Of a stretch of DNA of 64,000 nt, positions 8,506 to 29,568 are shown piece by piece. A program made the translations under genes and the position numbers. The notes beneath the pieces were generated by a model, which saw only the letters and a program-made list of their open reading frames with translations, was not told the DNA's origin and ran no database searches. The stretch's first letter is position 1. The number at the start of each line of letters is the position of its first letter. Location: assembly GCA_963971405.1 (NCBI GenBank), contig OZ020488.1:27299089-27363088 (forward strand), written 5' to 3'. Origin of the DNA: Psococerastis gibbosa. Taxonomy: Eukaryota; Arthropoda; Insecta; Psocodea; Psocidae.

Positions 8506-9163
8506 TTTGTGGGGCCGTTTGCCGTTTTCCGTTTGCCGTCTACGCCCATCTTATAACACCAGTCTTTTTGATAAATTCTAGTGTTTTTGTGATGGGATTA
8601 GATCGGATGGTTTCCTCTTCAGACCTAGGGTGGCCAAGAGTTTGGTATCGAGTTTTTCCCAGCGCTTCACATTCAAAGAGAATGTGTTCAGCTGTTTCTT
8701 CTTCAACTTCACACAGTCTGCATCTACTGTCGTTTTTCACGCCAACCCTATGCATGTGTTTGTTGAAGTGGCCGTGGCCCGTAAGCGTGCCAACCACCCT
8801 TCTAGCTTGCTCTCTACTTAAAGAGAGAAGCTGATCGGTGAGCTTTTTACTAGGACCCGGAATAACCTTCTTAGCAAATCTGCTTTCCGGGACTTTCTTC
8901 CATTCCTCTGCAGTTTTTCTCTGCACCCATTTTTGTACAGAAGTACGGGCCTGGCAATAAGCCATCCCATACTTAGGTTCTGCACCAATGAATGGCGTTT
9001 CTGCACCTTTTCGAGCCAGCTCGTCGGCTCTTTCATTCCCATCAAAGTTCGAGTGAGCCGGGACCCAAATCAGCGAGACTGAGTTTTCCCGACACACCTT
9101 TATTAGGAGGTTGATGCAGTGCCACACCATTTTTGATGTGATCTTTATAGCCTCCACAGCCTT
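8471..9163 (-). mobile_element. 5'-truncated LINE (RNase H-bearing) with poly(A) tail and target duplication
   Basis: Read on the minus strand this is the 3' end of a non-LTR retrotransposon: end of an RNase H domain, a C-terminal zinc-binding domain, a stop, a short 3' UTR of about 38 bp and a 31-nt poly(A) tail (T run at 8471-8501). The 11-mer AATCATATCTT occurs at 8462-8472 and again at 9164-9174, a perfect target-site duplication bounding the copy. The open frame is uninterrupted through the whole insert, so the insertion looks recent. The domain order fits the Jockey/I/R1-like LINE groups; the exact clade is not assigned. Confidence 0.9.
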
Positions 9164-9169
9164 AATCAT
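8540..9169 (-). pseudogene. LINE ORF2 C-terminal fragment: RNase H end plus CCHC-type zinc domain
   Basis: The frame gives 209 residues. Residues 35-53 read WVPAHSNFDGNERADELAR, the last RNase H motif, with the conserved His and Asp. Residues 150-167 give C-x2-C-x8-H-x4-C (CRLCEVEEETAEHILFEC), the zinc motif found downstream of RNase H in LINEs. The reverse transcriptase and endonuclease are absent because of 5' truncation. The apparent ATG lies inside the flanking target duplication, so it is not a native start. No host role is expected; any transcript would depend on neighbouring promoters. Confidence 0.88.
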
Positions 9170-9174
9170 ATCTT

Positions 9175-9558
9175 CTTAATAACAATCTAATTCAAATGGG
9201 TATTATGAACAAAATAAATGTTTCTCGCGGAAATACCTTATCCTGAAAGATTTGAGATGGTAGGTAAATTATTAGATGCGCAAGATCAAAAAAGGCGATG
9301 GGAACATTTCAATTTAAAGCATTAATTCATCAGAAATTGTAGCCTCTTAAAATCCAAACTTAAGAACCTTGAGTGAAAGAGTTATACATTTTCTCTCATT
9401 ACCTTAATTCCTCTATTCTTTGCGAATCATCACATTAGCAAATTAAGCCCTTTTGAAAAGAAGAGAGAAAATCCACCTTGTCAGATCTTAACTTTCGTCC
9501 AGGTGAATACAATATACAATACAATTTATATAAGTATTGAAATTAATTATGCTAAATG
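9175..9558. other. Non-coding gap between LINE and foldback MITE
   Basis: AT-rich with no recognisable feature. Confidence 0.4.
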
Positions 9559-28606: not shown

Positions 28607-29235
28607 ATACAGACAACATTTCAACCCAACTTAAATGGGCGTCTTATTGAACCATTCACCAAGCCGTATTTCTACAATGACGTCGGCCAATCGGGGCTGC
28701 GAGAATTATTCTTGTGTACCGGGCCAGACATATTCTACTGATAATTTATTCACATTAACTCTCACGATAACAATGATTATGTGGCATTTCTGGAATTGCT
28801 TGGAAATATTGTGAATATCTGATCCCCCCCCCCCCTACACTACACCTTTTTGAACAAAGTCGATTTGCGCAGGGATTATCGATCGTAGAACCATTAGAAA
28901 TATCTGTAAGTATCTGTATCATGTAACTTTCATTAACACCAACTGGCCACAGTTCTTAGTTCTTGAACTCCTTCCTCTGGATAATCACACCAAACGTTTT
29001 TTGCTCAAATCAAATTCAATATTTGTGGCCAATCTGTGTGAGAAAGAGGTACATAACATACTAACATATCAAACTGTTCAGAAAAATTTCTTCTGTTTGC
29101 ACTGATGATTTTGACAACGCTCTAATAAAATTATGATATTTCATGAGGGATTTGATTTTTACACGCATAAGGCCCTTTTTAATTAATGCTTTAATCCCTT
29201 GACTTAAATTAAAAATATGGATCTTGCTACAATTA
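28607..29235. other. Start of Dok-7-like intron 1 and distal sequence
   Basis: A C run at about 28827. No coding sequence recognised. Confidence 0.4.
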
Positions 29236-29241: not shown

Positions 29242-29344
29242 CTGCCACTGGAGACAACTTTCTCATAACACACCAGCGGGACTTCCACTTCTTCCCATCC
29301 CGAAACTTGACGGTGCCCTCAATCACTGCCGAAGTATCCGTCAT
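29242..29344 (-). CDS. Dok7: First coding exon of a Dok-7-like adaptor (start of PH domain), partial
   Basis: The exon opens with ATG and encodes 34 residues plus one base. Residues 12-30 read VKFRDGKKWKSRWCVMRKL, followed by SPVA, and the opening MTDTSAVIEG resembles the N-terminus of Dok-7. In that family this is the first strand pair of the PH domain, which binds membrane phosphoinositides; the PH and PTB domains together let Dok-7 bind and activate the muscle kinase MuSK in vertebrates. The exon ends GCAG followed by GTATGT, a strong donor, leaving a single G so that the next exon should begin AC to restore the expected Asp of VADC. An in-frame TAG lies seven codons upstream (29363-29365), supporting this start, and the base at -3 is G. 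No exon 2 was recognised in lower coordinates. The family call rests on remembered similarity; an IRS/Dok relative is the alternative. Confidence 0.82.
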
Positions 29345-29530
29345 GACGGGCGTATCACTGCACTAAACCATCAACAGAAATACCCGCACACTTGGGACGT
29401 CAGTACGCCACACTGGCAACAATAGGAAAGTTCCCTCTATCACTGCTTAACTCTCCGTCAATCCGCCATGTTGGAGTAAAGCTTCACTAAACCGTTAACA
29501 GTAAGAGGTACACTAGGGACGTGTCTATTC
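29310..29530. repeat. Degenerate tandem duplication over the Dok-7 start codon
   Basis: Sequence at about 29311-29403 is repeated at about 29428-29525, offset 117-124 bp. Shared blocks on the plus strand include CCCTC-ATCACTGC, TCCGTCA, CACTAAACC, AACAG and GGGACGT in the same order. The proximal copy contains the first 11 codons and the ATG; in the distal copy the position aligned with ATG reads ATTG. Both copies are diverged with small gaps, so the duplication is old. Confidence 0.6.
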
Positions 29531-29546
29531 CATCAATAAACACTGA

Positions 29547-29554
29547 TGACGTCA
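29547..29554. promoter_or_regulatory. CRE palindrome TGACGTCA upstream of Dok-7 exon
   Basis: A perfect TGACGTCA lies about 203 bp upstream of the ATG. The same octamer is the classical CREB/ATF site. A TATAAATA string follows at 29561-29568 but is oriented for plus-strand transcription, away from the gene. Promoter function is inference. Confidence 0.3.
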
Positions 29555-29568
29555 CATGGCTATAAATA

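Follow-up and report, generated by a model that had tools for sequence, protein, structure and literature searches.

A 103-bp exon as the probable start of a Dok-7 gene with a 173-kb first intron in the insect Psococerastis gibbosa

In vertebrates, the kinase MuSK of the muscle synapse is turned on by the adaptor Dok-7, a protein about half as long as the insect one predicted below. R159 is one of the residues of the phosphotyrosine pocket of Dok-7; the roles of R158 and R174 in the same pocket, and of dimerisation through the PH domain, were reportedly described by Bergamin in 2010. A passage of PMC13305817 states that the PTB domain of vertebrate Dok-7 docks on the phosphorylated NPXY motif of MuSK, and an excerpt of PMC5043372 describes binding of a phosphopeptide around Y406 of mouse Dok7 to a CRK-type SH2 domain from a choanoflagellate.

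Statements on the corresponding insect proteins differ between sources. A table in a review lists Nrk as the fly homologue of MuSK (PMC6982143), and a passage of PMC7067388 groups Nrk with Ror or, alternatively, places it closer to MuSK; going by these parts of the two papers, an insect relative of MuSK is thus already in print. A figure legend in one paper on LRP4 gives Drosophila as having neither an Agrin nor a MuSK homologue (PMC8006230), a statement in a second LRP4 paper denies it clear homologues of both (PMC11190576), and in passages of both papers fly LRP4 works via SRPK79D. Caenorhabditis elegans has no clear MuSK orthologue according to a statement in PMC1939731. An insect Dok-7 was not named in the titles and abstract openings returned by our literature search, the coverage of which extends to a minority of subscription journals. 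Insect Dok-7 proteins may well have been annotated automatically in databases.

The window analysed here is a stretch of 64,000 nucleotides (C13:27299089-27363088, contig OZ020488.1) from the genome of Psococerastis gibbosa, which comprises 409,210,807 bases in 68 contigs. Insect-type odorant receptors (PF02949) gave six matches in this genome, all over the cut-off, and were matched in 0 of 14 control genomes. A 30-base TTAGG pattern was found 13,642 times in forward and 7,517 times in reverse orientation, with 0 matches for the reversed control, and the matches listed lie no more than 16 kb from the end of contig C1. We take such odorant receptors and TTAGG telomere repeats to be marks of insects or arthropods. 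Within the window, a short minus-strand exon that encodes the beginning of the PH domain is very probably the first coding exon of an insect Dok-7 gene present in a single copy. It is followed by a 173-kb intron and is predicted to be spliced to a 2.8-kb exon carrying the rest of the PH domain, the PTB domain and a long tail with YxxP motifs, with a short exon 3 after that.

Exon 1 and the structure of the predicted gene

Exon 1 occupies positions 29242-29344 on the minus strand of the window (C13:27328330-27328432). Its 103 bases start with an ATG at 29344 and comprise 34 codons and one further base (phase 1); the minus-strand translation of 29344-29242 is MTDTSAVIEGTVKFRDGKKWKSRWCVMRKLSPVA, in which VKFRDGKKWKSRWCVMRKL is present exactly. 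On the same strand, an in-frame TAG (29363-29365) lies 21 bases 5' of the ATG, and the boundary to intron 1 reads ...CCAGTGGCAG|GTATGTTAAT, with the predicted donor GT at 29241-29240 (GCAG|GTATGT). The preliminary description of this DNA had listed the ATG, the upstream in-frame stop, VKFRDGKKWKSRWCVMRKL and a consensus donor without giving a strand, and all of them were found on the minus strand. A plus-strand reading of 29242-29344 was rejected because of stops in frame 1.

Assignment of the exon to Dok-7 draws on its translation and on searches in both protein and genomic sequence. When the exon 1 residues were compared by phmmer with 177,635 distinct PDB sequences, Dok-7 (3ml4) was the top match (E 1.4e-10) among four in all, the second being myosin X (E 0.11); mouse Dok-7 shares 24 of the 34 residues, as counted by eye on the alignment. 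The 34 residues alone matched no Pfam family. The PH-PTB region of mouse Dok-7, a query identical to the 3ml4 sequence, detected two places by tblastn in the whole 409-Mb genome at E up to 1, both on the same contig and the same strand. One of them is exon 1, with 66% identity over mouse residues 4-38 (E 5.4e-8), and the other (C13:27154354-27154902; 33% identity over mouse residues 32-211, E 4.7e-29) sits inside a 962-codon open frame. The earlier placement of the exon at the N-terminus of Dok-7 is therefore borne out by the protein search that had been proposed for it as well as by tblastn, and what had been called a real host exon was correctly spotted as part of an ordinary conserved host gene.

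Exon 2 is predicted at C13:27152109-27154895 (2,787 bp) and exon 3 at C13:27151167-27151308 (142 bp), separated by a predicted intron 2 of 800 bp. At the start of exon 2 the acceptor reads TTGTTTCAG|AT TGC (TTTCAG|AT-TGC), so that the final G of exon 1 and the AT of exon 2 give Asp, followed by Cys, as in mouse. Donor and acceptor match the consensus, and the phase of the exon 1 and exon 2 splice sites fits (phase 1). A downstream exon beginning with AC-TGC had been anticipated; such an exon exists and encodes the same Asp-Cys, but it starts with AT-TGC. A location of exon 2 within the window was rejected, as no second place matching mouse Dok-7 by tblastn was found there. Splicing of exons 1, 2 and 3 to one another is predicted from the sequence. 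The intron position may match that in human DOK7; a literature search on the human DOK7 c.101-1G variant found no paper.

Intron 1 measures 173,434 bp, with its last base at C13:27154896. The 264 kb that were read contain no N, and hence window positions 1-29241 (minus strand) consist entirely of intron; they hold its first 29.2 kb, and it continues for about 144 kb past the left edge of the window. The suggestion that the lower part of the window is a long first intron thus held, with a gap-free sequence and exon 2 on the same contig and strand.

The joined frame comprises 1,010 codons without a stop. Read-through beyond exon 3 gives AGG TAA, and AATAAA signals occur at C13:27151109 and 27151097 (58 and 70 bases past the exon 3 end); exon 3 was therefore taken as terminal, which gives the protein a predicted length of about 1,011 aa. 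The sequence AG|GTAAAT at the end of exon 3 may also be a donor, which would make further exons, starting with an exon 4, possible. A codon-usage scan for exons beyond exon 3 yielded no convincing candidate.

Is the short exon still part of a gene? Intron 1 contains a LINE with long open frames, and a dispersed repeat starts less than 70 bp from the exon 1 donor, both of which, together with the 173,434-bp distance, would suit a stranded Dok-7 fragment or pseudo-exon cut off from the rest by 173 kb of repeat-bearing DNA. However, the exon has an intact start codon, reading frame, donor and phase, the last of these matching exon 2, no other place in the genome was found to encode the exon 1 residues, and the open frame of exon 2 lacks an ATG ahead of the remaining PH domain, which makes a stranded fragment very improbable. 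We give still less credence, close to none, to the exon belonging to a different PH-domain protein that is merely Dok-7-like. Such an origin could be read from a match of just 34 residues and from weaker PDB matches elsewhere, that of myosin X among them, but Dok-7 scores almost nine orders of magnitude better than myosin X and the in-phase exon 2 continues Dok-7. The exon is accordingly treated below as the start of the Dok-7 gene. At 34 codons and isolated by a 173-kb intron, it was nonetheless recognisable from raw sequence; such small isolated exons are often missed by gene-prediction programs.

On the minus strand, a diverged local duplication consists of an upstream copy at 29430-29514 and a downstream copy at 29313-29392, and covers the 5' UTR together with the region around the start codon in exon 1. 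Its alignment score was 28.5, compared to a maximum of 16.5 in 2000 dinucleotide shuffles. The upstream copy includes a possible upstream ORF of three codons (ATG GCG GAT TGA, 29458-29469, minus strand) with a putative function. A possible core promoter lies at 29542-29568 on the same strand, where the pattern matches are TATTTATAG, whose first T is at 29568, TGACGTCA, starting at 29554, and TCAGT, starting at 29546. The first T and the A of TCAGT are 24 bases apart, a somewhat short TATA-to-start distance.

Several other features were recorded in and around the locus. The LINE in intron 1 (C13:27236830-27240551) has long open frames for ORF1, with a GDSL-type esterase match just below the Pfam cut-off (32.2 bits; cut-off 32.9), and for ORF2, with endonuclease and reverse transcriptase. 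Window positions 8540-9175 contain a LINE fragment with RNase H, and the dispersed repeat near the donor (29134-29173) recurs at 16 other places in the genome with 78-93% identity. Also in intron 1, a 405-codon open frame without a Pfam match (C13:27231036-27232250, plus strand) has the second highest codon-usage score in the 264 kb, the other frames there being of low complexity. Outside the window, roughly 20 kb downstream of exon 3, lies a 1,487-codon open frame (C13:27127119-27131579, plus strand), likewise without a Pfam match. Its first 656 residues have 29 matches in the genome: 19 at 100% identity (rounded, self included), 17 of which share the same full frame length, eight at 47-48%, and two shorter pieces. 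This pattern suggests a mobile element that has been spreading recently. Further downstream of Dok-7, open frames resembling NFU1 (C13:27111012-27111794) and valyl-tRNA synthetase (within C13:27105475-27107907) were noted by eye.

Identity and layout of the predicted protein

At about 1,011 aa, the predicted protein consists of a PH domain, a PTB domain directly after it, and a long tail. Its N-terminal PH domain is of the Dok-7 type and keeps the RDGKKWKSRW and SPVADC blocks; the Pfam PH model scores 23.5 bits, just under the cut-off of 25.1, and the IRS/PTB model (PF02174) scores 32.2 bits, above its cut-off of 22. Compared with PDB, the joined first 220 residues matched Dok-7 (3ml4) over query residues 5-211 with E 1.2e-46. 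The next best molecule for the joined PH-PTB region was Dok-5 (E 3.1e-6), and Dok-5, Dok-1, Dok-2 and FRS2/3 matched in the PTB domain only (E 3.1e-6 to 2.5e-3). An IRS-type PTB sequence is hence common to all of these proteins, whereas the match over PH and PTB together is to Dok-7 alone. Seven places of the IRS type were found in the genome, all over the Pfam cut-off, and the Dok-7 gene is one of them. When the insect Dok-7 was used as query against its own genome, it found its own two exons and, much more weakly, another PTB place at E 9e-6 and a chance-level place at E 0.8. On this best-match evidence in both directions the gene is taken as a single-copy Dok-7. No NCBIfam family was matched by exon 2.

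Vertebrate Dok-7, as represented by 3ml4, and the insect protein are alike in having an N-terminal PH domain followed by a PTB domain and, more tentatively, in the YxxP-bearing tail. They differ in the predicted length of the insect protein, in the concentration of most of its coding sequence in exon 2, in the 173-kb first intron, and at one position of the PTB domain: the LRRYG core is kept, including R158 and R159, but R174 of the mouse domain is replaced by Leu. A literature search on R174 found no paper. The tail (795 residues) has five YxxP motifs, of which four lie at residues 350-465. Taken over its full length this is a weak excess, with five motifs compared to a mean of 2.0 and 866 of 20,000 shuffles reaching five.

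A MuSK-type kinase and a proposed docking contact

A query consisting of the kinase and juxtamembrane region of human MuSK matched at 112 places among the 124 scored of 196 candidates. The best place was C20:10450811-10451725, with 64% identity over query residues 3-312 (E 2.7e-129); the next one had E 1.5e-39. In the reverse direction, the 435-codon open frame at this place had MuSK as its best PDB match (E 1.2e-130), followed by an entry named EGFR (8.6e-86), among the best 60 of 237 matches. At its start, the frame encodes the last part of a Kringle domain. Ten NCBIfam models matched this kinase, all far under their cut-offs. Set beside MuSK or Drosophila Nrk, the insect kinase differs in the Kringle end at the start of its frame and in its juxtamembrane motif: the juxtamembrane sequence is NPMY-QRMPLLL-NPKL in MuSK and NQSY-HKTGSQL-NPKL in the insect. 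The insect kinase has no NPxY; NQSY keeps the Asn, the Tyr and the seven-residue spacing to NPKL but loses the Pro. As for other candidate partners, Rapsyn_N gave one match in the genome (77.4 bits, cut-off 23), with one of 14 control genomes matched, under the cut-off. No match to the agrin NtA domain was obtained in this genome, nor in any of the 14 control genomes.

By analogy with vertebrate Dok-7, the insect protein would dimerise through its PH domain, and its PTB domain would dock on the juxtamembrane tyrosine (NQSY) of the MuSK/Nrk kinase. The docked Dok-7 would then promote activation of this candidate partner, and the YxxP tyrosines of the tail may be offered to Crk-type SH2 adaptors. 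We infer that insect Dok-7 may act as an adaptor-activator of a Nrk/MuSK kinase. Its docking contact would be somewhat altered, and may be weaker or different, given Leu in place of R174 and NQSY in place of NPxY.

These same two substitutions could instead mean that a true Dok-7 does not dock by phosphotyrosine on a MuSK-type receptor at all, its PTB domain being re-purposed or its partner being another receptor. The two LRP4 papers (PMC8006230, PMC11190576), in which Drosophila has no (clear) MuSK homologue and fly LRP4 works via SRPK79D, point the same way. Retention of the LRRYG core argues against such a loss, as does the presence in the receptor of a tyrosine at the MuSK position, with seven residues between it and NPKL as in MuSK, and with the Asn of NPxY retained. 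On balance we consider a loss of this docking rather unlikely, albeit an alternative to be taken seriously, and favour the adaptor-activator role.

The gene adds a member to a known family, and its occurrence together with a MuSK-like kinase in an insect is mildly surprising given the LRP4 papers. More speculatively, and with a smaller chance of being right than the loss of docking just discussed, insects may keep the Dok-7 and MuSK/Nrk pair with both contact points altered, in which case the neuromuscular switch of vertebrates would represent an ancient signalling module of bilaterians with a modified, perhaps phosphorylation-independent, docking step. With Dok-7 and a MuSK-type kinase present in one insect genome, inheritance of the muscle-synapse switch from an older pathway becomes directly testable.
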